DNA from: Nitriliruptorales bacterium
GTDB taxonomy: Bacteria; Actinomycetota; Nitriliruptoria; Euzebyales; JAHELV01
DNA length: 45,395 nt
Reading direction: 5' to 3'
Assembly (NCBI GenBank): GCA_024644015.1
Contig: JAHELV010000009.1
Coordinates: forward strand, 1,831-47,225
Part shown: positions 14,385 to 38,355 of the stretch, one piece after another
Position numbering within the stretch: the stretch's first letter is position 1
Layout of the letters: each line of letters opens with the position of its first letter
Notes under the pieces: generated by a model
Database searches by the model: none
Seen by the model: the letters and a program-made list of their open reading frames with translations, nothing else
What the model was told of the DNA's origin: nothing
Position numbers and translations under genes: made by a program

Positions 14385-17033
14385 ATGTCAGATGTGCTCG
14401 ACCACGCCGACCGGTACGCCGTGGCGACGGTCCTCGACGCTGCGCGCGTCGACCCGCTCACGGGCCTGTCGGCACAGGAGGCGCGACAGCGCCTGATTGC
14501 CGACGGGCGCAACGAGCTGCCGCAGCCCCCACCCCAGAAGTTCAGTGCCCAGGTCATCGGGCAGCTGCGCGAACCGATGGCGCTGCTGCTCCTGGGCGCG
14601 GCGTGCGTGTCGGGCATCGTGCTCGGCGAAGTCATCGACGCCGTCGCGATCGGGGTCATCGTGATCCTCAACGCGACGATCGCCATCGTCGAGGAGCGAA
14701 GGGCCGCGGCGGCACTCACAGCGCTGCGTGCACTCGAAGTGCCCAGCGCGCGGGTACGGCGCGACGGGGTGCCGTCGGAGGTGCCTTCGGCCGAGCTCGT
14801 CACCGGAGACATCGTGCTGCTCGACGCCGGTGACCGTGTGCCCGCCGACGTGCGTCTGGTCCAGACCGTCGGGCTCGAGATCGACGAGTCGCTGCTGACG
14901 GGTGAGTCCCTCGCGGTACGCAAGGACGCCGACGGCGTGACGCCGACCGACGCCGGACTGGGCGATCGCACGGGGTTCGCGCACACCGGGACGTTCGTCA
15001 CGAGAGGGACCGCGACCGGCGTCGCGGTGGCGACGGGGCCCGGCACGACGCTGGCGACGATCGCCGGACAGGTCGCGGCGGCTCGACGCCCCACGCCGCT
15101 GCAGATCGATCTGGCGCACGTGACGCGCCAGCTGGCCGTCGTGTCGATCACCGTCGCCGCCGCCGTGCTGGGGCTGTCGCTGGTGCGCACCGGTGTCGGC
15201 GCGGCGTCGTTCGAGCAGGCGTTCCTCGCCGCGGTCGCGCTGGCCGTCGCAGCGGTGCCGGAGGGGCTGGCCACCGTGACGGCCGTCGGCCTGGCGCTGG
15301 GCGTGCGCCGCATGGCCGAACGAGGCGCGATCGTACGTCGGTTGGCGGCCGTCGAGACTCTCGGTTCGGTCACCGTGTTGATGGTCGACAAGACCGGGAC
15401 GCTGACCGAGAACCGGATGCAGGTCGCTGAGCTGTACAACCCGGGCGCGGACCCCGCACGGCCAAGCCAGTGGGATGCGAAGGACCGCGAGGCCGCGGAA
15501 CGCGTGATGGCGTTGTGCAACGACGCGTCGCTGGATCCGCCGGTCGGCGATCCCATGGAGGTCGCCCTGCTCGAGGCCGTCGAGCCCACCACGGTCGCGC
15601 GTCTGCGATCCCGGTGGCCCAGGCTTCACGCCAGCCCGTTCGACGCCGACCGCAGGCGGATGGCGACGGTGCACACCGACGGCGCGTCGCCGTCGCCCCG
15701 CTTCGAGCTGCTGGTGAAGGGCGCGCCGGAGGCGGTCCTCCCCTACTGCGTCTCGGTCGAGCCGGGCCGACCGTTGGATGACGACCGTCGTGCGGCGCTG
15801 ACCCAGCGGATCGAGGCGACGGCGGCGTCGGGAGTCCGCGTGCTCGCTCTCGCGCACCGCACACTTGCGTTCGCGCCCGACGATCCTGACGCGCAGGTCA
15901 GCGATCTCGAACTCGTCGGCCTGGTCGGGCTACGCGATCCCGTTCGCGCCGCCGCCGCGGACTCGGTCGCGCAGGCGCGACGTGCCGGCATCACCCTGCT
16001 GATGGCGACCGGGGACCATCCAGGGACCGCGCAGGCGGTGGCCGGCGAAGTCGGGATGGTCGACGGCCACCTCACGCGGATCGCCACCGGTCCCCAGCTG
16101 CGCGCCGACGGTCTTGCGGATGACCCGGCAGCGACAACGGTGTACGCCCGCGTCGATCCGGATCAGAAGCTGGCCGTGGTCGAGCGGCTCCAGGAGCGGG
16201 GCGAGGTCGTCGGGATGACCGGTGACGGCGTCAACGACGCGCCCGCGCTGCGGCGGGCCGACATCGGCATCGCGCTGGGCCGGCGCGGCAGCGACGTCGC
16301 GCGGGAAGCCGCCGACATGATCATCACCGACGACGATCTGGCGACGATCGTGTCAGCTGTGCGCGAGGGACGCGGCATCTACGACAACCTGCGCAAGGTG
16401 GTCGACTATCTTGTCGCCGGCAACCTCGGAGAGATCTTCGTGGTCGTCGTGGGGCTGCTGCTCGTGCCGGCGATGGGGCTCCCGCTGCTGCCGCTCCAGC
16501 TGCTCTGGATCAACCTGGTGACCGACGGGTTGCCCGCCATCGCACTCGGCGTCGACACCACGGACCCGGCCGTGATGCATCGACCGCCGCGCGACGTCGG
16601 CGCGCGGCTGCTCACGTGGGGTCGGATCGGGCTCCTGGCGCGCATGGCCGCGGTCATCGCCGCGGCCGCCCTCGCCGGCCTCGCCTTCGCCCGCCTCGGG
16701 CTGGACGCGTCGTGGGAGCAGGCGCGGACGGTGCTGTTCTCCGGGCTCGTCGTTGCCCACCTGGGGTACGCGTACATCGTGCGTCGCGGCAGCGGCGGTC
16801 TGCGCAGCAACCCGTGGCTGCTGCTCGCGACGGTCGGCGGGATCGCACTGCAGGCCCTGCTCGTGCTCGTCCCGGCGACACGCCAGCTGTTCGACGTGAC
16901 ACCGCTGAGCCTCGCCGGCTGGGCGACGGTCGCCGTCGTCGGCATCCTTCCGAACGTCGTGTTGTGGATGGCCGGCGTGGGTGGCATCCGGGCGCGGTCG
17001 GAGCAGACCGGGGCGCGGCCCGGCATCCCGTAG
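14385..17033 (+). CDS. P-type Ca2+-family cation-transporting ATPase (CtpF-like)
   Basis: This 882-residue membrane pump has all P2-ATPase marks. They are the actuator loop LLTGESLAV (about 171-179), phosphorylated Asp335 in DKTGTLTEN, the hinge TGDGVNDAPAL, and about ten membrane helices. Helix 4 reads AAVPEGLATVT and helix 6 reads WINLVTDGLPAIALG. The PEGL and NLVTDG residues are the Ca2+-site signature of SERCA/PMR1-type pumps, so Ca2+ or Mn2+ export is likely. Mycobacterial CtpF, of this type, is a DosR-regulon member. The N-terminal cation-ATPase domain (VDPLTGLSAQEARQRL) is intact. It appears to share the promoter of the double-USP gene just upstream. Confidence 0.92.
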   Translation: MSDVLDHADRYAVATVLDAARVDPLTGLSAQEARQRLIADGRNELPQPPPQKFSAQVIGQLREPMALLLLGAACVSGIVLGEVIDAVAIGVIVILNATIAIVEERRAAAALTALRALEVPSARVRRDGVPSEVPSAELVTGDIVLLDAGDRVPADVRLVQTVGLEIDESLLTGESLAVRKDADGVTPTDAGLGDRTGFAHTGTFVTRGTATGVAVATGPGTTLATIAGQVAAARRPTPLQIDLAHVTRQLAVVSITVAAAVLGLSLVRTGVGAASFEQAFLAAVALAVAAVPEGLATVTAVGLALGVRRMAERGAIVRRLAAVETLGSVTVLMVDKTGTLTENRMQVAELYNPGADPARPSQWDAKDREAAERVMALCNDASLDPPVGDPMEVALLEAVEPTTVARLRSRWPRLHASPFDADRRRMATVHTDGASPSPRFELLVKGAPEAVLPYCVSVEPGRPLDDDRRAALTQRIEATAASGVRVLALAHRTLAFAPDDPDAQVSDLELVGLVGLRDPVRAAAADSVAQARRAGITLLMATGDHPGTAQAVAGEVGMVDGHLTRIATGPQLRADGLADDPAATTVYARVDPDQKLAVVERLQERGEVVGMTGDGVNDAPALRRADIGIALGRRGSDVAREAADMIITDDDLATIVSAVREGRGIYDNLRKVVDYLVAGNLGEIFVVVVGLLLVPAMGLPLLPLQLLWINLVTDGLPAIALGVDTTDPAVMHRPPRDVGARLLTWGRIGLLARMAAVIAAAALAGLAFARLGLDASWEQARTVLFSGLVVAHLGYAYIVRRGSGGLRSNPWLLLATVGGIALQALLVLVPATRQLFDVTPLSLAGWATVAVVGILPNVVLWMAGVGGIRARSEQTGARPGIP

Positions 17034-23298: not shown

Positions 23299-24264
23299 CT
23301 ACGCGGCGTCGGGTGGCACCACCATGATCGGCGAGGTCGCGTGACGCACGCAGTGCTGGCTGACGGATCCCAGCAGCATGCCCGTGAACCCACCGCGTCC
23401 GCGGCGACCCACGACCAGCAGCGTGGCCGACTCGGCCGCGTCGAGCAGTCCCTTGGCGGGGCTGTCGGCCCCGACGACGGTCGTCGTGACGGTTGCGGGA
23501 AGCGTCGCGGGATCCACCTTCGCGAGTTCCTTCTCGATGCGCGCTTCGGCGGCGTGTCGCCAGTGCTCCACGATCACCTCGCGGTGCATCTGCACACTGA
23601 GGGCCGGATCGCTGCTCACCGGTGGCAGCGCACCGGTCCACACGTAGGCGTCGATCGCGGCCTGCGACGGAGACCGATCGTTCGCGGCCGGCGGCGGAGG
23701 CTGCACCATGATCAGCTCGAGCTCACAGCCCCGCAGCGACGCTTCCGTGGCAGCCTGCCGCAACGCGGCGCGTGCGTACTCCGAGCTGTCGACGCCGACG
23801 ATGACCTTGTCCGGGACGTCTCGTTTCCGTTCCGAGCTGGGCACCACCACGACCGCGCCCCGCGCGTGCACCACGACCTGCTGGCTGACCGAGCCGAGCA
23901 GCAGACGCCGGTAGGCGCTGAGCCCACGCGACCCGAGGACGAGCGTGCTGGTGTCGGTCTCACGCTGGATCAGCGCCCGGTACGTCGGCGCATCCCGCAG
24001 GACGTCGGTTGCGATGTCCACGCCGCTGTCGGCGTACCGGGACACGGCCTCCTCGAGCAGCTGATGCGCTCGTCGCATCGTGGTCTGCTCCGCTCGCCGC
24101 TCGGTCCCCTCGTCGATGCCGATCTGGCTGAACAGCAACGCCGGCGGTTGCGCCACTGTCACGACCGTCAGGTCGTCCCCTCGCAGCCGGGCTTCCTCGA
24201 CCGCCCACGCGAGAGCGCTGCGCGAACTGTCCGAGCCGTCGAACCCGACCACCAACTCACCCAT
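23299..24264 (-). CDS. tandem-domain universal stress protein
   Basis: This 321-residue protein carries two UspA folds. Domain 1 starts ELVVGFDGSDSSRSALAWAV and ends GSRGLSAYRRLLLGSVSQQ. Domain 2 starts KVIVGVDSSEYARAALRQAA and ends GRRGRGGFTGMLLGSVSQH with CVRHATSPIMVVP. Both retain the ATP loop. Domain 2 has an insert near 190-215 (PPPPAANDRSPSQAA). GAGGTGG lies just before the ATG. It converges with the lectin-like gene and follows the terpene-cyclase-fold gene on the same strand; the strong palindrome between them suggests separate transcription. Confidence 0.9.
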   Translation of the reverse strand: MGELVVGFDGSDSSRSALAWAVEEARLRGDDLTVVTVAQPPALLFSQIGIDEGTERRAEQTTMRRAHQLLEEAVSRYADSGVDIATDVLRDAPTYRALIQRETDTSTLVLGSRGLSAYRRLLLGSVSQQVVVHARGAVVVVPSSERKRDVPDKVIVGVDSSEYARAALRQAATEASLRGCELELIMVQPPPPAANDRSPSQAAIDAYVWTGALPPVSSDPALSVQMHREVIVEHWRHAAEARIEKELAKVDPATLPATVTTTVVGADSPAKGLLDAAESATLLVVGRRGRGGFTGMLLGSVSQHCVRHATSPIMVVPPDAA

Positions 24265-27777: not shown

Positions 27778-28181
27778 CGCCGGTCGACCGGTGGCGGTCG
27801 CCGTCGACCGCGGCGTGCTCGGCGGCGAGCGCAGACGCCCAGTCGGACGCGTCGCCCTCGGGCTGCGCTCCGCGTCGTGGTCACGGTTCTCGTCCTCAGT
27901 CTCTACGAGCTGCGTCGTCGTTGCGAGCCCGCACGATCCGCGGTGCCGTCGACCGCACGCACGGTCGGCCGCGGTCATGGCGTGGCCACGGCCAACGTTG
28001 CCTTCTCATCCTGAATCCAGCCTGAACGGGCCACAAGGGCGAGGGGGCGCCGTACGACAGTGCCGGGGTCGCCTGGTGACCCACCTACTGTGCCTCACGG
28101 GTACAACGGTCCCGCTAGCGGGACATTCGACCCTGGCGAGTGGCCCGTCGCACACCCAGACTGCATCAGAGGCAGTGTCGC
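27778..28181. promoter_or_regulatory. divergent control region between phosphoesterase and selenoprotein genes
   Basis: This 404-bp region has no credible gene. Near the selenoprotein start it contains a 16-bp perfect palindrome, GTCCCGCTAGCGGGAC (28109-28124), overlapping a DosR-like box at 28120-28133. Elsewhere I see no clear signal. Confidence 0.45.
28099..28133. promoter_or_regulatory. DosR-like boxes upstream of the selenoprotein gene
   Basis: GGGACATTCGACCC (28120-28133) fits GGGnCnnnnGnCCC at all fixed positions and ends 49 bp before the start. A weaker GGGTACAACGGTCC lies at 28099-28112, 21 bp upstream. Confidence 0.5.
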
Positions 28182-29051
28182 ATGGACCCGTACCGCTACC
28201 TTCCGTTCCTGTCCCGCAGGGTGATGCAAGCGTGGGCGGCGCGCGAGCAGCCCTCCGACCACATCGCATGGACCCCGTTGGCGCGGCCGCTCGCCGACTG
28301 CCGGGTGGCCCTGATCTCGACCGCCGGCATCGCGCTGCGGACCGACCAACCGTTCGATCAGCAGGGCGAACGTGACGACCCCTGGTGGGGCGATCCCACC
28401 TGCCGGCAGCTGCCCGCAGACGTCACAGAAGCCGACGTGCGCTTCTATCATCTCCACATCGACGCCACGCCGGCCGAGGAGGATCTCGACGTGCAACTGC
28501 CGTTGCGCCGGCTGCGCGAACTGGTCGACGCGGGAGTGGTCGGGCAGATCAGCCCGCGCCACTTCTCCATCATGGGCTACGTACTCGACGCGACCGAGCT
28601 GACCACCATCACCGCACCCGAGCTCGCCAAGGCTCTGACCGCTGACCGCGCCGACCTCGTGCTGCTCGTCCCCGTCTGACCGTTCTGCAACCGGTCCGTG
28701 GGGCTGGTCGCCAACGTCATCGAGGACGCCGGGGTACCGACCGCCTGCCTGTCCATGATCCCACCGCTGACCCGAGCGACCGGAGCTCCACGGGTCATCG
28801 GTCTCGCCCACCCGATGGGAATGGCCTTCGGCAGACCCGGTGACGCCGACGGGCAACGCGACGTCCTGCGAGCTGCGCTCGAGGCCGCCGCGGCGATGAC
28901 CGAGCCCCGCAGCTACACCGAGCTGCCGTTCATCTGGCCGGAACCGCGCTCCGCGGCGATCCGCCACCCCGACCCCCCACCACCGATCGTCCAGCTGCTG
29001 ACGAAGAAGCCGTGGTTGCTGCCCCGACTCGTCTCCGGCGAGCTGCCGTGA
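28182..29051 (+). CDS. short GrdB/PrdB-family reductase with in-frame TGA (candidate selenocysteine 166)
   Basis: Reading through one TGA at 28677-28679 gives a 289-residue protein of the glycine/sarcosine/betaine/D-proline reductase selenoprotein B family. Before it are DCRVALISTAGIALRTDQPF, DVRFYHLHIDATPAEEDLD, VDAGVVGQISPRHFSIMGY and DRADLVLLVPV. After it the same frame continues PFCNRSVGLVANVIEDAGVP and TACLSMIPPLTRATGAPRVI, then GLAHPMGMAFGRPGD to the stop. Family members carry Sec or Cys at exactly this position, so UGA reads as Sec166 in a U-P-F-C redox pair with Cys169. The protein likely reduces a small substrate with a thiol-type donor; glycine or proline reduction is unproven since the other Grd/Prd subunits are not here. 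Its stop overlaps the SulP start. A nonsense mutation is the alternative. Confidence 0.8.
28677..28708 (+). promoter_or_regulatory. TGA plus candidate bacterial SECIS hairpin
   Basis: Ten bases after TGA the RNA can pair ACCGGUCC (28690-28697) with GGGCUGGU (28701-28708) around a GUG loop, eight pairs including two G-U. Bacterial SECIS hairpins start about this far from the UGA. An alternative GACCG/CGGTC stem (28678-28682 with 28692-28696) competes. Pairing was done by eye. Confidence 0.45.
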
Positions 29052-30877
29052 AGTCCGACGCGGACGCCCTGGAATCCGCGCCGGGGTGGCGCAAGTGGCT
29101 GCCGGGCGCACAGACGATCGTCGACTATCGGCGGGACTGGCTGGGCCCCGATGTCGTCGCCGGCCTGGTGCTCACGGCGCTGCTGGTGCCTCAGGGCATG
29201 GCGTACGCCGAGCTTGCCGGCCTGCCGCCGGTGACCGGTCTGTACACGACGGTCATGGCGCTGGCCGCCTACGCCGTGTTCGGCCCGTCACGCATCCTGG
29301 TGCTCGGACCGGACTCGGCGCTGGCGCCGCTGATCGCGGCGGCCGTGGTCCCGCTCGCAGCCGGGGACCCCGCGCGAGCGGTGTCGCTGGGCGCGATCCT
29401 GGCGTTGCTGACCGGGCTGGTCTGCGTCGGCACCGGCCTCGCACGGTTGGGCACCATCACCGAGCTGCTGTCGAAACCGGTGCGCGTCGGCTACATCAAC
29501 GGCATCGCCCTCGTCGTGCTGGTGAGCCAGTTGCCCAAGCTGCTGGGCTTCTCGACTGACGCCGACGGCTGGGTCGCCGAGGTGGGCGCGGTCGCCTCGG
29601 GCGTGGTGGCGGGCGAGGCCGACGCGATCACGATGGCACTCGGTCTCGGTTCGCTGGCGATCATGCTCACCGCCAGGCGACTGTCACCGCGGATACCAGG
29701 CGTGCTGGTCGCCACCGTCGGCGCGACGCTGGCGGTGGCCGCCTTCGACCTCACCGACGTCGTCTCGGTCGTCGGCCCGCTGCCCGCGGGGCTGCCGACC
29801 CCCGCCGTGCCGCGCGTCAGCCCGGCCGACCTTGCGACCCTCAGCCTCGCCGCCGTGGGGGTCGCCCTGGTGGCGTTCGCCGACACCGCGGCGCTGTCGA
29901 CCACGTTCGCGGCCAAGCTCGGGGACCCGGTCGACCCGAACCAGGACATCGCGGCGCTGGGCGCTGCGAACCTGGCCGCCGGCCTGTTCCAGGGATTCCC
30001 CATGAGCGCCAGCTCGTCGCGGACCGCGGTGGCGGATTCGGTGGGATCGAAGAGCCAGCTCACAGGCGTGATCGGGGCGGTCAGCATCGTGGCGCTGCTC
30101 GTGTTCGCCAACGACCTGCTCGCCGACCTGCCGTCGGCGACCCTTGCCGCCATCGTCATCGTCGCGTCGTTCACGCTGTTCGACGTCGACGAGATGCGGT
30201 GGCTGTGGCAGGTGGGGCGCTGGGAGTTCGCGCTGGCGCTCGCCGCCCTGCTCGGTGTCACGCTGGCCGGGGTGCTCGAAGGGCTCGTGATCGCCATCGT
30301 GCTGTCACTCGGCAACTTCGTGCGCCGCGCGTGGCGGCCCTACGACGCCGTGCTCGGCCGGGTCGACGGTCTGCGTGGGTATCACGACATCGAACGCCAT
30401 CCCGAGGGCAGGCAGATCCCGGGACTGGTCATGTTCCGGTTCGACGCCCCGATGTTCTTCGCGAACGCCGAGCACTTCCAACGGCGGATCGCCGACGCCA
30501 TCCGCTCGGCCGAGACACCGGTGCGCTGGGTCGTCGTGGCCGCCGAGCCCGTGGCCGACATCGACACGACGGCCGCGGACACCCTTCGGGAGATCCTCGA
30601 CGAGTTCGACCAGCGCGGCATCCGGCTGGCGTTCGCCGAGCTCAAGGGTCCCGCGAAGGATCAGCTGCGCAGGTACGGGCTGTACGACCGTGTCGGCGAG
30701 GAGCACTTCTATCCCACGCTGGGCCGGGCGACGACCGAGTACGTCAAGGCCACCGGCGTCGACTGGGTCGACTGGAAGGACCGCCGGGACGACCGCAAGG
30801 ACGCCGGTGACGGTCAGGGGCCCGATGACGGCGGGGACGAGGTGCGCCCCGAGTCATCGGACCCCGGATCCGCGTGA
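29048..30877 (+). CDS. SulP-family anion transporter with STAS domain
   Basis: The 609-residue protein begins with the SulP core: WLGPDVVAGLVLTALLVPQGMA, AYAELAGLPPVTGLYTTVM, VLGPDSALAPLIAA and FPMSASSSRTAVADSVGSKS. It has about 10-14 membrane helices. The C-terminal cytosolic STAS domain runs from about residue 450 (GLVMFRFDAPMFFANAEHF, VVVAAEPVADIDTTAADTL, FAELKGPAKDQLRRYGL). SulP proteins move sulfate, bicarbonate or other anions, usually with H+ or Na+. GTG 29048 overlaps the stop of the selenoprotein gene (GTGA), so the two are translated together and a functional link is likely. Which anion is carried is not readable. Confidence 0.9.
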   Translation: MKSDADALESAPGWRKWLPGAQTIVDYRRDWLGPDVVAGLVLTALLVPQGMAYAELAGLPPVTGLYTTVMALAAYAVFGPSRILVLGPDSALAPLIAAAVVPLAAGDPARAVSLGAILALLTGLVCVGTGLARLGTITELLSKPVRVGYINGIALVVLVSQLPKLLGFSTDADGWVAEVGAVASGVVAGEADAITMALGLGSLAIMLTARRLSPRIPGVLVATVGATLAVAAFDLTDVVSVVGPLPAGLPTPAVPRVSPADLATLSLAAVGVALVAFADTAALSTTFAAKLGDPVDPNQDIAALGAANLAAGLFQGFPMSASSSRTAVADSVGSKSQLTGVIGAVSIVALLVFANDLLADLPSATLAAIVIVASFTLFDVDEMRWLWQVGRWEFALALAALLGVTLAGVLEGLVIAIVLSLGNFVRRAWRPYDAVLGRVDGLRGYHDIERHPEGRQIPGLVMFRFDAPMFFANAEHFQRRIADAIRSAETPVRWVVVAAEPVADIDTTAADTLREILDEFDQRGIRLAFAELKGPAKDQLRRYGLYDRVGEEHFYPTLGRATTEYVKATGVDWVDWKDRRDDRKDAGDGQGPDDGGDEVRPESSDPGSA

Positions 30878-30882
30878 CCTCG

Positions 30883-32931
30883 TCAGGCGCCGGGGCCAAC
30901 CTGGAGGACCCGCATCATCTCGTGGTCCTCGTGCGACAGGATGTGGCAGTGCCACACGTAGCGACCGGGCTTGTCAAACGTCGCTTTGATGCGCGTGATC
31001 TGCCCGGGCAGCGCGGTGACGACGTCCTTCGGGGCATTCTCGACGTACTCCGCGGGCTGCGGCACCGCCGGACCGTAGGTCTTGTTCACGATCCGGAACC
31101 CGTTGCCGAGCAGCCCGTTGTGCTGCACGACCGGCTGGGTCACCAGATACGTGCCGTCGCCGTTGGGCGCCGGCGTCGTTTCTTCCTCCGGATCCAGCAC
31201 TCGGTCGTCCTCGTTGGTCGCGGAGTCCCACTTGATCTCCTGGCGTCCGAGGATCTCGTAGCTGACGAGGTGCAGGTGGACCGGGTGCGCGTCGCCGGTG
31301 ACGTTCCAGATCTCCCACTCCTCGGTGCTGTCCAGCGCCGGGTTCTCGGTGGCCGGGCTGTGCCAGGCGACCGTGCCCTCCATCTGCCCGACCAGCCCGG
31401 CGTCGACGTACACCGGCGTGTTCGGCCAGTTGATCGGGTGGCCCAGATGGTCGGTCGCGGGCTCCGCGGTGCCGAGCAGCGGTTGGAGCCGGCCGAACTC
31501 GTCGGTGCCCTCGAACAGCGCCACCTTCCGCGTGTGCGTCGGCGTCGCCACGACCGGACCGAACTCGATGCCCGTCGGGCTGACGTCGGGTACGGCGGTG
31601 TCCAGCGGCAGCGCGACGTCGAAGGCCATGATCCGGTCGGTCTCGCCGAACACCTGCGGACCCGGGATGTCGCCGCCGAACGGCTCGTCGCCGCCGATGT
31701 TCTTCATGATCACCCGGTTGCCGTCACTCACCTGCTTGAAGTCGACGATCACGTCGTAGCGTGACCCCGTCTCGATCAGCAAGGTGCCGATAGTCGTCGG
31801 GCTCGACGCGAGCCCCTGGTCGCTGCCGATCACCGTGAAGTCCAGCGGCCCCTTGACGACAGTCGACAAGTCCGTCGCCCCGGCCGGCACCTCGAAGAAC
31901 TGGACCGCCAGGAAGCGGCTGTCGCAGCCGTTGAGCAGCCGCAGGCGGTACTTGCGCGGCTCGACGTCCATCTTCGGCCAGATCTGGCCGTTGACCAGCA
32001 TGTGGTCGCCGAAGAACTCGGCCAGCGCCGTCGGACCGCCGCCAGAGAACGGGGGGTCCGGCAGAACAACCCCCTCGCCGGTGATGAAGTCGTCGTAGAA
32101 CGGGTCGCCGGGAAACGCAGGGTAGAACAACCGCCCGTCGTCATGGAACATGCGGTCCTGGATCGCCAGCGCCACCTCGTAGGGGAACGCGGGCAGACCG
32201 AGCGGGTTACCGGGCTTGCCCGTGTCGAACCCGTCCCGCAGGATGTAGAACCCCGCCAGCCCCGCATACACGTTGAGCCGGGTGATGCCCAGCGCGTGGT
32301 CGTGGTACCACAGCGTGCCCGCCGGCTGGTCATTCTGGTACACGTATTTCTTGTCGACCCACTGCGGTCCCCGCACCTTGTAGCCGCGCGAGAAGAAGAA
32401 CTCCGGGTTGCCGTCGAACTGGAAGTCGGAGTGCCCACCGTGCAGGTGCGCGACCGCCGGGACGCCGTCCTTCTCGATCGAGTACTGCTCGTAGCCCTGC
32501 AGCGAGTAGGCCCAGTGCAGCGACGTGTCAACCGGCAGCAGATGGCTGCGTGGCAGCTTGTTCTCCCACTTGACCTCGACCGGCTCACCCGAGTACGCGA
32601 CGAGCGTCATGCCCGGCCAGGTGCCGCCCGGACCATTCGGGCCGTAGCCCCACACGGGCGTCGACAGCGGGTTGCCGCCGGCATCGACCAGCCCGGCCAT
32701 CTGGGTCGTCTGCCGCATCGCGATCCTGTATTTGTTGTTGGGCGACTGGAGGATGAAGCTGGGGTCGAGCGCGTTGGGCACCGCGTTGGCGAACTTCGGC
32801 TGCAGCGCAGGGTCGCTCAGCCCGTCCGCCGCCGCCGCGGCCAGTGCCCGGCCGACACCGCCGAACACGTTCATGTACGCCAGCGCGCCCGACGCGGCCG
32901 CACCCTTGAGAAACTGTCTCCGGTCGAGCAT
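30883..32931 (-). CDS. Tat-exported multicopper oxidase (CotA/bilirubin oxidase-like)
   Basis: The 682-residue enzyme begins with a twin-arginine signal (LDRRQFLKGAAASGALAYMN). It has the four copper-binding motifs in order: VAHLHGGHSD, GTLWYHDHALGITR, HPVHLHLVSYE and VWHCHILSHEDHEMMRV. The last includes the HCH and axial Met of the T1 site. Three cupredoxin domains fit its length. It oxidises a reduced substrate or metal (bilirubin, phenols, Mn2+ or Cu+) and reduces oxygen to water outside the membrane. It converges with SulP, leaving five bases, and diverges from PFOR across a region with phased boxes. Substrate unknown. Confidence 0.92.
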   Translation of the reverse strand: MLDRRQFLKGAAASGALAYMNVFGGVGRALAAAAADGLSDPALQPKFANAVPNALDPSFILQSPNNKYRIAMRQTTQMAGLVDAGGNPLSTPVWGYGPNGPGGTWPGMTLVAYSGEPVEVKWENKLPRSHLLPVDTSLHWAYSLQGYEQYSIEKDGVPAVAHLHGGHSDFQFDGNPEFFFSRGYKVRGPQWVDKKYVYQNDQPAGTLWYHDHALGITRLNVYAGLAGFYILRDGFDTGKPGNPLGLPAFPYEVALAIQDRMFHDDGRLFYPAFPGDPFYDDFITGEGVVLPDPPFSGGGPTALAEFFGDHMLVNGQIWPKMDVEPRKYRLRLLNGCDSRFLAVQFFEVPAGATDLSTVVKGPLDFTVIGSDQGLASSPTTIGTLLIETGSRYDVIVDFKQVSDGNRVIMKNIGGDEPFGGDIPGPQVFGETDRIMAFDVALPLDTAVPDVSPTGIEFGPVVATPTHTRKVALFEGTDEFGRLQPLLGTAEPATDHLGHPINWPNTPVYVDAGLVGQMEGTVAWHSPATENPALDSTEEWEIWNVTGDAHPVHLHLVSYEILGRQEIKWDSATNEDDRVLDPEEETTPAPNGDGTYLVTQPVVQHNGLLGNGFRIVNKTYGPAVPQPAEYVENAPKDVVTALPGQITRIKATFDKPGRYVWHCHILSHEDHEMMRVLQVGPGA

Positions 32932-33022
32932 GATCCACCCTTCTCATGTTCGGCCGGCAGGCCCCCACGACCCGCCGATCCAGTCATCGCCCCGACCGCC
33001 GTGCCGAGGCACGGACATGACA

Positions 33023-33080
33023 TGAGATATCGTCCCTTCGGACATGTCCGAACGTCCCTGTCGAATGGCCCGAAAGTCCC
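33023..33080. promoter_or_regulatory. three GTCCC half-sites phased at 22 bp in MCO/PFOR divergent promoter
   Basis: GTCCC occurs at 33032-33036, 33054-33058 and 33076-33080, exactly 22 bp apart. The rightmost two end the 14-mers TGTCCGAACGTCCC (33045-33058) and GGCCCGAAAGTCCC (33067-33080). A perfect 16-bp palindrome TTCGGACATGTCCGAA covers 33037-33052. The set lies 92 bp from the oxidase start and 167 bp from the PFOR start. Confidence 0.55.
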
Positions 33081-33246
33081 TCTGGTGGTCGCCGCGAGCC
33101 GCGACCGTTGCAGCGGCCCCACGGCTCAACCGGCCAGACGACGAGTCGTCAGTCCCAACGCCGCCGGTCCGTTCGGCCTCCCCCGTCGAGCGGGACGTCC
33201 CTACCGTCGTCGGTGTCCCACCCGCCGCCGTGTCCCAGGAGCCCGC

Positions 33247-36200
33247 ATGGCAACCGCCTGCATCGATGGCAACGAGGCGGCGGCCCGCGTCGCACACGCG
33301 TACAGCGAGGTCGTCGCCATCTACCCGATCACCCCGGCGTCGCCGATGGGTGAGCTGGCCGACGCCTGGTCCAGTGCGGGGCGGGCGAACGTGTGGGGAA
33401 CCGTGCCGCGCATCGCCGAGCTGCAGAGCGAGGGCGGCGCGGCCGGTGCGCTGCACGGCGCACTGCAGAAGGGCGCGCTGGCCACGACGTTCACCGCGTC
33501 GCAGGGCCTGCTGCTGATGCTGCCGAACATGTTCAAGATCGCCGGTGAGCTGACCCCGGCCGTGATCCACGTGGCGGCGCGTTCCGTCGCGACCCACGCG
33601 CTGTCGATCTTCGGCGACCACTCCGACGTGATGGCGGCCCGCGCGACAGGTTGGGCGCTGCTCGCCTCGAGCTCGGTGCAGGAGGCGCAGGACCTCGCTG
33701 CGGTCGCGCACGCCGCGACGCTGCGCAGCCGGGTGCCGTTCCTGCACTTCTTCGACGGCTTCCGGACCTCGCACGAACTGAACCGCGTCGACACCCTCGA
33801 CGCCGACGACCTGCGGGCGCTGATCGACGACGATGACGTGCTGGCGCACAGGGCGCGCGGTCTGTCGCCGGACACACCGGTGCTCCGCGGGTCGGCGCAG
33901 AACCCAGACGTGTTCTTCCAGGCACGCGAAGCCGTCAACCCGTTCTACGACGCCGTGCCCGGTGCGGTGCAACGTGCGATGGATGGCCTGGCGGACCGCA
34001 CCGGGCGGCGATACCACCTGGTCGACTACACCGGACACCCGGAGGCGGACCGCGTCGTCGTGCTGATGGGTTCGGGGGTCGGTGCCGTCCGCGAGACGGT
34101 CGCCGAGCTCAACCGGCGCGGCGAACGCGTCGGCGTCCTCGCGGTACGGCTGTTTCGGCCGTTTCCCGGCACCGCGCTGCTGGGCGCACTGCCACCGACC
34201 ACCCGACGTCTGGCGGTCCTCGACCGCACGAAGGAGCCGGGCGCCGTTGGCGAGCCGCTGTTCACCGACGTCGCCGCCACGCTGGCCGAGGCGGCGACGA
34301 CAGGCCTGCTCGACCCGGCGGCACTCCCCCGGCTGACCGGCGGCCGCTTCGGGCTGTCGTCGAAGGAGTTCACCCCGTCGATGATCGCCGGCCTGTTCGA
34401 CGTGCTGCGCGCCGACCCGCCGCGCCGCTGCACCATCGGCATCACCGACGACGTCACCCACCTGTCGATCCCGCCCGACCGAGACTTCGCCGTACCGGTC
34501 ACCGACGGCGACGTCCACGCCGTCTTCTACGGTCTCGGCAGCGACGGCACGGTCGGCGCGAACAAGAACTCGGTCAAGATCGTCGGCGAGCTCACCGACC
34601 TGCACGCGCAGGGCTACTTCGTGTACGACTCGCGCAAGGCGGGTGCGCAGACCGTCTCGCACCTGCGGTTCTCACCCGACCCGATCGAATCGACCTACCT
34701 GATCGACCGCGCTGACTTCGTCGCCTGCCACCAGTTCGGCTTCCTCGGCACCCGCGACGTGCTCGGCTGCGCCAAGCCGGGGGCCACCGTCCTGCTCAAC
34801 GCGCCGCTACCAGCCGATCAGGTGTGGGACGCGTTGCCCGCACCCGTCCAGCAGACGATCGTCGACCGGGACCTGCGGCTGTTCGTCATCGATGCATACC
34901 GGGTGGCGCGCGACGTTGGTCTGGGTGGGCGCATCAACACGGTGATGCAGCCATGCTTCTTCGCCCTGTCGGGAATCCTGCCCCACGACGAGGCGATCGC
35001 GGCGATCAAGCAGGCGGCCGAGCGCACCTACGGTCGGCGGGGGCCGGAGGTCGTCGCACGCAACCTCGCCGCGGTCGACCGTGCCCTCGACGAGCTCGCG
35101 GAGGTCACGGTTGGCGACCGCGTCACCTCGACGTTCGGGCTGCGCCCACCGGTGCCGCCCGACGTGCCGCCGTTCGTCGAGAGGGTCACGGCCCGCATGC
35201 TCGCCGGCGAGGGCGACCTGCTGCCCGTGTCGGCGCTGCCCGTCGACGGCACGTTCCCGACCGGCACGACCCGGTACGAGAAGCGGGCGCTGGCGCGGGA
35301 GATTCCCGTGTGGGACCCGTCGATCTGCATCGACTGCGGCAAGTGCGCCATCGTGTGCCCGCACGACGCCATCCAGATGAAGGTCTTCGAGCCCGAAGCG
35401 CTCAACGGCGCGCCCGAGACGTTCCAGTCGAAGGACTTCCGGTCACGGGATCTGGCGACACCCCACCTGCTGGCGATCCAGGTGGCCCCCGACGACTGCA
35501 CCGGCTGCGGTGTGTGCGTCGAGCAGTGTCCCGCGCACAGCAAGGAAGTGGTCGGCCACAAGTCGATCATGATGGAGCCGGTCGCAGAGCACCGCGACCG
35601 AGAACGCGACAACTTCGCGTTCTTCGAGCAGATCCCGCCGCTCGACCGCACGCTGCTCGCAGCCGACACGATCAAAGGGTCGCAGGTCCGCGAGTCGCTG
35701 TTCTCGTTCTCCAGCGCCTGCGCGGGATGCGGGGAGACCCCGTATCTCAAGCTGCTCACGCAACTGTTCGGCGACCAGATCATCGTCGCCAACGCAACCG
35801 GCTGCTCGTCGATCTACGGCGGCAACCTGCCGACGACCCCATGGGGGGTCAACGGCGATGGACGCGGCCCTGCCTGGGCGAACAGCCTGTTCGAAGACAA
35901 CGCCGAGTTCGGCATGGGGCTCCGCCTGGGCGTCGAACAGCAGGCCGCCGCCGCGCGATCGCTGCTGAGCGCGCTGCGTGACGTGGTCGGCGACGACCTC
36001 GTGGCCGAGCTGCTGCGGGCCGACCAGGCCCAGGCCGACGACGAGCAGCTCGCAGCCCAGCGCGAACGGGTGGCCGAGCTTCGCAGGCGCCTCGCGGCAA
36101 TCGACGGCGACCCACGTGCGCGCCAGCTCGACGGCCTCGCCGACAACCTGGTGCGCACGGACGTGTGGATCGTCGGTGGCGACGGCTGGGCGTACGACAT

Positions 36201-36864
36201 CGGCTACGGCGGGCTGGACCACGTGCTCGCCAGCGGCCTGAACGTCAACGTGCTCGTGCTCGACACCGAGGTCTACTCGAACACGGGCGGACAGGCGTCG
36301 AAGGCGACACCGCGAGCCGCGGTCGCCAAGTTCGCCGCGTCGGGAAAGGAGACACCGAAGAAGGACCTCGGTGCCCTGGCGATGCAGTACGGCACGGTGT
36401 ACGTCGGGCAGGTCGCCATGGGCGCCAACGAAGTACAGACGGTCCGGGCGCTGCGCGAAGCCGCGGCGTGGACTGGACCGTCGCTGGTGCTGGCCTACTC
36501 GACGTGCATCGCGCACGGCTTCGACATGCGGCACTCCATGACCCACCAGCGTGACGCCGTCAAGAGCGGATACTGGCCGTTGTTCCGCTTCCGCCCAGGC
36601 GAATCCGAGCACACGACGCCGTTCCGCCTGGACTCCCGCAAACCGACGATGCCCCTGAGGGACTTCGCCCGGCAGGAGGGCCGCTTCGCGATGCTGGAAC
36701 GTGCCGCGCCCGAGCGCGCCCGCCATCTGCTGACGCTCGCGCAGGCCGACATCGACGAACGCTGGCGCTACTACGAGCAGCTCGCCGGCGTCGAGCGCTC
36801 CGTACCGCACGAGCCCGGTGACGTCGTCGATCCCGGCGGCATCGGAGCCGAGGAGGTTCACTGA
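33247..36864 (+). CDS. nifJ: pyruvate:ferredoxin (flavodoxin) oxidoreductase
   Basis: This 1205-residue fused enzyme oxidises pyruvate + CoA to acetyl-CoA + CO2 and reduces ferredoxin or flavodoxin; the reverse can fix CO2. The N-terminal pyrimidine-binding domain (AYSEVVAIYPITPASPMGELAD, ASQGLLLMLPNMFKIAGEL) leads to the gamma domain (GLGSDGTVGANKNSVKI). Two ferredoxin-type clusters follow (CIDCGKCAIVCPHDAI and CTGCGVCVEQCPAHS). The TPP domain with its own cluster Cys closes it (CAGCGETPYLKLLTQLFG, GDGWAYDIGYGGLDH, LDTEVYSNTGGQASKATP). The full single-chain length is that of NifJ-type PFOR. GGAG six bases before ATG 33247 sets the start. The next gene overlaps its stop by one base. Oxygen sensitivity suggests microaerobic use. 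Confidence 0.95.
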   Translation: MATACIDGNEAAARVAHAYSEVVAIYPITPASPMGELADAWSSAGRANVWGTVPRIAELQSEGGAAGALHGALQKGALATTFTASQGLLLMLPNMFKIAGELTPAVIHVAARSVATHALSIFGDHSDVMAARATGWALLASSSVQEAQDLAAVAHAATLRSRVPFLHFFDGFRTSHELNRVDTLDADDLRALIDDDDVLAHRARGLSPDTPVLRGSAQNPDVFFQAREAVNPFYDAVPGAVQRAMDGLADRTGRRYHLVDYTGHPEADRVVVLMGSGVGAVRETVAELNRRGERVGVLAVRLFRPFPGTALLGALPPTTRRLAVLDRTKEPGAVGEPLFTDVAATLAEAATTGLLDPAALPRLTGGRFGLSSKEFTPSMIAGLFDVLRADPPRRCTIGITDDVTHLSIPPDRDFAVPVTDGDVHAVFYGLGSDGTVGANKNSVKIVGELTDLHAQGYFVYDSRKAGAQTVSHLRFSPDPIESTYLIDRADFVACHQFGFLGTRDVLGCAKPGATVLLNAPLPADQVWDALPAPVQQTIVDRDLRLFVIDAYRVARDVGLGGRINTVMQPCFFALSGILPHDEAIAAIKQAAERTYGRRGPEVVARNLAAVDRALDELAEVTVGDRVTSTFGLRPPVPPDVPPFVERVTARMLAGEGDLLPVSALPVDGTFPTGTTRYEKRALAREIPVWDPSICIDCGKCAIVCPHDAIQMKVFEPEALNGAPETFQSKDFRSRDLATPHLLAIQVAPDDCTGCGVCVEQCPAHSKEVVGHKSIMMEPVAEHRDRERDNFAFFEQIPPLDRTLLAADTIKGSQVRESLFSFSSACAGCGETPYLKLLTQLFGDQIIVANATGCSSIYGGNLPTTPWGVNGDGRGPAWANSLFEDNAEFGMGLRLGVEQQAAAARSLLSALRDVVGDDLVAELLRADQAQADDEQLAAQRERVAELRRRLAAIDGDPRARQLDGLADNLVRTDVWIVGGDGWAYDIGYGGLDHVLASGLNVNVLVLDTEVYSNTGGQASKATPRAAVAKFAASGKETPKKDLGALAMQYGTVYVGQVAMGANEVQTVRALREAAAWTGPSLVLAYSTCIAHGFDMRHSMTHQRDAVKSGYWPLFRFRPGESEHTTPFRLDSRKPTMPLRDFARQEGRFAMLERAAPERARHLLTLAQADIDERWRYYEQLAGVERSVPHEPGDVVDPGGIGAEEVH

Positions 36865-37944: not shown

Positions 37945-38355
37945 ATGACCGATACGCCGGTCCTGCTGACAGCGCTGTCAGACGACGATTGCTGGAACCT
38001 CGTCGCGGCGCACCGGCCCGCCCTGTGCCGGATCGCCTTCACCGACGGCGGGAGCTCGGTGATCTACCCGATGAACTACGCCGTCGCCGACCGCACGCTG
38101 TACCTGCGCACCGATCCGGCGAGCCGGCTCACGACCGCCGTGCAGTCGCAGGACGTCGCGTTCGAGGTCGACGACGTCGACGCGGCCTGGGAACGTGGCT
38201 GGAGCGTCCTGGCGCAGGGCCGGCTCCGCGAGGTCACCGACCCCGACGAGCTGGAGCGGCACCGCGAACTGCGGTTCCGCTCGTGGGCCCCTGGACAACG
38301 CCTCCACCTGCTCCGCCTCGACGTCACGCGCATCTCGGGCCGGCGCATCGAGTGA
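37945..38355 (+). CDS. pyridoxamine 5'-phosphate oxidase-like flavin split-barrel protein
   Basis: The 136-residue protein is a small split-barrel flavin binder. It reads LSDDDCWNLVAAHRPALCRIAF, SSVIYPMNYAVADRTLYLRTD, SRLTTAVQSQDVAFEVDDVD, RGWSVLAQGRLREV and LLRLDVTRISGRRIE. This is the pattern of actinobacterial PNPOx-like/F420- or FMN-binding stress proteins, several of which are DosR-regulated in mycobacteria. Genuine PNP oxidase function is unlikely at this length. GGAGGAG lies just before the ATG. It is 25 bp after the DHOD-like gene and probably the last gene of the PFOR operon. Confidence 0.82.
   Translation: MTDTPVLLTALSDDDCWNLVAAHRPALCRIAFTDGGSSVIYPMNYAVADRTLYLRTDPASRLTTAVQSQDVAFEVDDVDAAWERGWSVLAQGRLREVTDPDELERHRELRFRSWAPGQRLHLLRLDVTRISGRRIE

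Follow-up and report, generated by a model that had tools for sequence, protein, structure and literature searches.

Reading frame and the in-frame TGA

The window, which is the whole stretch of 45,395 nucleotides analysed here from a Nitriliruptorales bacterium, contains a gene that is interrupted by a TGA at codon 166, and this raises the question of whether the codon is read as selenocysteine (Sec) and, if so, what kind of enzyme the gene encodes. The combined results make it very likely that the product is a genuine selenoprotein carrying Sec166 by means of a SECIS hairpin; its likeliest role is that of a stand-alone UxxC reductase instead of a D-proline reductase. The features on which the analysis was based are as follows.

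28182 to 29051, + strand: PrdB-like selenoprotein gene (289 codons), ATG start, stop TGA at 29049-29051
28677 to 28679, + strand: UGA, very probably read as Sec166 in a U-P-x-C motif; 66 of 70 homologous loci carry TGA here
28686 to 28688, + strand: codon of Cys169, the resolving-type Cys in UxxC, which does not vary within the family
28690 to 28708, + strand: bacterial SECIS hairpin, 8-bp stem (28690-28697 with 28701-28708), apical loop GUG (28698-28700)

A ribosome-binding-like AGAGG was found approximately 10 bases 5' of the ATG, and the TGA lies in frame within the gene. With the TGA taken as U, the translation reads ...LLVPV-U-PFC-NRSVGLVANVIE..., which includes Cys169 and confirms the U-x-x-C pair given in a preliminary description of this DNA. 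The third-position GC content was 0.87 before the TGA and 0.86 after it, that is, coding-like on either side. Under the standard code the internal TGA cuts the gene into two fragments, and the window comes from a draft assembly of 161 contigs; both points would suit a pseudogene or a sequencing or assembly error, in which the TGA would be a nonsense mutation of recent origin or a misread TGC or TGT.

The closest homologue in a scan of named genomes was a locus from an Acidimicrobiia MAG (L070), with 69% identity over all 289 residues. Ka/Ks between the window gene and this locus was 0.25 for the part 5' of the TGA and 0.31 for the 3' part, which in the two other frames gave 1.3 and 2.7. Selection thus acts at the protein level on the sequence after the TGA, and in the frame that is also read before it. 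The in-frame TGA is not a chance occurrence, because homologues run through it and purifying selection acts on the codons that follow. No decay was found on either side of the TGA, and the frame is open in both directions as had been described.

Homologous loci and the residue at codon 166

The first search set comprised 101 genomes, namely that of the window and 100 relatives. Because the initial alignment (A1) lacked any segment of sufficient conservation for a genome-wide scan, a closer set took its place. The 25 homologous loci translated from the 101 genomes showed TGA at exactly codon 166 in 22 cases and Cys in 3 (L013, L015, and L031). Among the 45 loci from the scan of named genomes, codon 166 was TGA in 44 and Ser in one; these loci came from Acidimicrobiia, Rubrobacter, Anaerolineales/Ardenticatenaceae, Acidobacteria, relatives of Geobacter, Myxococcota, Gammaproteobacteria, and others. 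Taken together, TGA was present in 66 of the 70 loci, with Cys in 3 and Ser in 1, and the TGA loci were distributed over at least five phyla. The residues U/C166, P167, and C169 were invariant in an alignment of 18 sequences. The earlier statement that the family sequence continues past the TGA, with Sec or Cys at the site, was thus upheld, with the single Ser as an addition. No relatives were found on viral contigs.

The presence of the same TGA in 65 other loci of different genomes and phyla, the purifying selection after it and the covarying hairpin on its 3' side (see below) leave a nonsense mutation or a miscalled base hardly credible, and a pseudogene or assembly error was refuted by the comparative data.

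The Ser locus (L108, Nitrospinota, positions about 2735-2745) has the codon TCA, one base from TGA, and has lost the hairpin; this may reflect a changed active site or a sequencing error.

SECIS hairpin

The hairpin of the window lies 18 nt 3' of the UGA and has a folding energy of -10.4 kcal/mol on its own. The bacterial SECIS (bSECIS) model allows a loop of 3-9 nt and a stem of 4-16 bp with a G at loop position 1 or 2, at 16-37 nt from the UGA and with an energy of at most -7.5 kcal/mol (PMC13188914). The window's hairpin was within every one of these limits. The 60 nt after the TGA of the window alone folded no better than dinucleotide shuffles (z +0.9). Folding of a single sequence was not significant and a codon-preserving test over many genes was therefore needed, so that the support for the hairpin comes from the comparison across genes. 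In these tests two loci that are probably the same gene, L012 and L092 (the Rubrobacter taiwanensis locus), were counted once.

Of 64 TGA genes, 62 had a SECIS-like hairpin at this position, compared with 26.9 predicted by synonymous resampling. All seven outer pairs were formed in 49 of the 64 genes, against 3.6 +/- 1.7 expected (1000 synonymous resamplings of the codons, maximum 13). In a gapless alignment of 36 columns, covariation was 0.559 compared with 0.176 after shuffling, and 61 compensatory double-change cells were counted compared with 11.2 after shuffling. Both sides varied in six of the eight stem pairs, and the signal was lost when the partner was slid by one to three columns. 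The stem was broken in each of the three Cys relatives and in the Ser relative. The gene set shows, for a single family, a bSECIS with clear covariation over several phyla, and would be useful to train finders of Sec genes.

Selenocysteine machinery

The genome that holds the window is a draft assembly of 4.0 Mb (97% complete). The preliminary description had predicted selA, selB, selC, and selD, and profile and tRNA searches found all four in this genome; the absence of Sec machinery, which had been named as the result that would speak against Sec, is not the case, as the machinery is complete. The tRNA-Sec gene (C86:3176-3267) scored 70.1 bits, over the Rfam cut-off, and ARAGORN gave the anticodon TCA. 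SelA (C86:72434-73750, 471 bits), SelB (C86:75939-77780, 321 bits), and SelD (on C23, 359 bits) were all over their curated cut-offs. SelD itself has an in-frame TGA at the canonical Sec site (HGAGUACK), and a formate dehydrogenase of the same genome has TGA at its canonical site (CNRTUH). As tRNA-Sec, SelA, SelB, SelD, and other TGA-containing selenoprotein genes are all encoded in the genome, the organism appears to use Sec decoding.

A second PrdB-like selenoprotein gene is found in the same genome (L032, C132:463-984), with TGA at the same codon, a SECIS-like hairpin of its own and a longer C-terminal part.

The TGA homologue was present in 20 of the 101 searched genomes. A tRNA-Sec scoring 62 bits or more was found in 19 of these 20 genomes compared with 50 of the 81 others (Fisher p = 0.002, a value that is only indicative because the genomes are related). 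No strong tRNA-Sec was found in the remaining TGA-bearing relative (G048), which is about 80% complete. In two genomes, G042 and G047, no more than about 50 bases separate the tRNA-Sec gene from the matched stretch of the homologue. In these the PrdB-like selenoprotein gene (L058 on G042:C126 and L059 on G047:C88) and the tRNA-Sec gene are arranged tail to tail. A survey from 2006 listed 12 selenoprotein families in Actinobacteria (PMC1794560); with this and the 20 genomes found here, the suggestion that selenoproteins other than formate dehydrogenase are uncommon in Actinomycetota is doubtful.

The residue itself cannot be read from sequence data, which leaves room for an ordinary amino acid inserted by readthrough, or for a TGA reassigned in this lineage. 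Such a decoding is highly improbable, as the selenoprotein gene's own terminator is a TGA, the Sec apparatus is complete in the genome, and the hairpin fits the bSECIS model and is disrupted in the relatives with Cys or Ser. Four independent lines, namely the machinery, the TGA in 66 of the 70 loci, the purifying selection after it and the covarying SECIS hairpin, point to a TGA that is read as selenocysteine, in agreement with the initial proposal that Sec166 is real. In the mechanism proposed for Sec insertion, SelA would charge tRNA-Sec with selenophosphate supplied by SelD, and SelB, docked on the SECIS hairpin 18 nt 3' of the UGA, would bring the Sec-tRNA to codon 166. Translation would then run on to the TGA at 29049, a step that is well supported by the sequence evidence. 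The data justify annotation of the gene as one 289-residue selenoprotein and not as two fragments.

Family identity and relation to D-proline reductase

PrdB (TIGR04483) is the selenoprotein subunit of the clostridial D-proline reductase, and GrdB, GrdF, and GrdH (TIGR01918, PF07355) are the substrate-specific selenoprotein B of the glycine, sarcosine, and betaine reductases. The window gene had been placed in this GrdB/PrdB family. The best NCBIfam match of the protein was PrdB, with 142.7 bits over residues 29-250, far below the equivalog cut-off of 300, while the Pfam GRDB family (PF07355) was matched with 26.6 bits, over its gathering cut-off of 22.

The protein is homologous to PrdB over the matched residues and has the Sec of its UxxC motif at the same place. 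However, it is longer by about 40 C-terminal residues, its PrdB score is under half the cut-off, it occurs as a single gene in non-clostridial bacteria, and PrdA/GrdE was not found in the genome of the window. It matches the C-terminal half of the GrdB/GrdF/GrdH profile, the Sec region included, but with scores of 42-50 bits against cut-offs of 65-800, and neither the N-terminal half (about 210 profile positions) nor the partner subunits are present. The part of the family assignment that stands is therefore the homology with Sec at the same site; the protein is a PrdB-like orphan and not PrdB or GrdB proper.

The matches to PrdB and GRDB and the presence of the UxxC motif would also be expected of a functional D-proline reductase PrdB or a GrdB-type subunit of a Stickland-type complex. 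A search of the 101 genomes for PrdA/GrdE (PF09338) matched in G009, G016, and G040 but found nothing in the other 98, among them that of the window, and no conserved operon or neighbour genes were seen among the loci inspected. Together with the low PrdB score, these results make a subunit of such a complex very unlikely; it is the missing pyruvoyl partner subunit PrdA/GrdE that argues against a D-proline reductase.

Selenoproteins of this kind have been catalogued in environmental data. PrdB-type UxxC selenoproteins ranked third in abundance among the known families of the Sargasso Sea set, with 42 genes (PMC1088965), 235 such genes were reported from the GOS metagenome (PMC2398784), and a 'proline reductase' selenoprotein was listed for a Geobacter in the 2006 survey (PMC1794560). 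The marine proteins named 'Proline reductase PrdB' resemble the window protein in being pfam07355-type UxxC selenoproteins that are abundant in environmental bacteria and, compared by description, very probably belong to the same orphan family (PMC1088965, PMC2398784). As these were catalogued in marine metagenomes between 2005 and 2008, the window gene adds one more member to a family already known. Since PrdA is missing, the usual name 'D-proline reductase' or 'PrdB' appears misleading when applied to these environmental selenoproteins.

Predicted structure and likely role

The predicted model was confident (mean pLDDT 96.8). In it, Sec166-Pro-x-Cys169 follows a strand (159-163) and lies where a helix (167-182) begins, so that Sec166 and Cys169 are predicted to sit at the N-terminal end of a helix, behind a beta strand of a Rossmann-like domain. 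No solved structure was clearly related by sequence, the few matches under E = 1 spanning 25-40 positions and being chance-like, and a Foldseek search with the predicted model returned nothing under E = 0.001. The best VIA-align Z was 7.7, which may reflect merely the common Rossmann-like arrangement.

From the homology and the UxxC motif, the likeliest role would be that of a stand-alone UxxC reductase with a selenol/thiol pair. In such a soluble enzyme Sec166 and Cys169 would most likely form a redox pair of the selenenylsulfide/dithiol type. There is about an even chance that the protein represents an uncharacterised family of stand-alone selenoenzymes, distinct from D-proline and glycine reductase, with N- and C-terminal extensions of its own and almost always with Sec, that carries out an undescribed reduction. 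A family of this description would span Acidimicrobiia, Chloroflexota, Acidobacteriota, Gammaproteobacteria, and Myxococcota.

Gene neighbourhood

The gene that follows in the window overlaps the selenoprotein stop.

29048 to 30877, + strand: sulfate permease of the SulP type, with a STAS domain; GTG start overlapping the stop of the selenoprotein gene at 29049-29051

The two genes are probably co-translated in the window by translational coupling. The overlap from GTG 29048 could also suggest that the selenoprotein works with the transporter in the uptake and reduction of sulfate, selenate or another anion. This partnership is unlikely, since SulP was not seen beside the gene in the nearest relatives (G002 and L070) or at the other loci inspected.

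A perfect 16-bp palindrome, GTCCCGCTAGCGGGAC, is located at 28109-28124 between the divergent metallophosphoesterase and selenoprotein genes. It occurs once in the window, is absent upstream of the gene in L070, and is possibly an operator. It is overlapped by GGGACATTCGACCC (28120-28133), which resembles a DosR box; DosR-box-like patterns near the selenoprotein gene were not enriched in the window. Elsewhere in the window are a P-type cation ATPase (14385-17033), a universal stress protein (23299-24264), a pyruvate:ferredoxin-oxidoreductase-like frame (32002-36864), and a pyridoxamine-oxidase-like gene (37945-38355), a set that, within one region, is reminiscent of a hypoxia or stress regulon.
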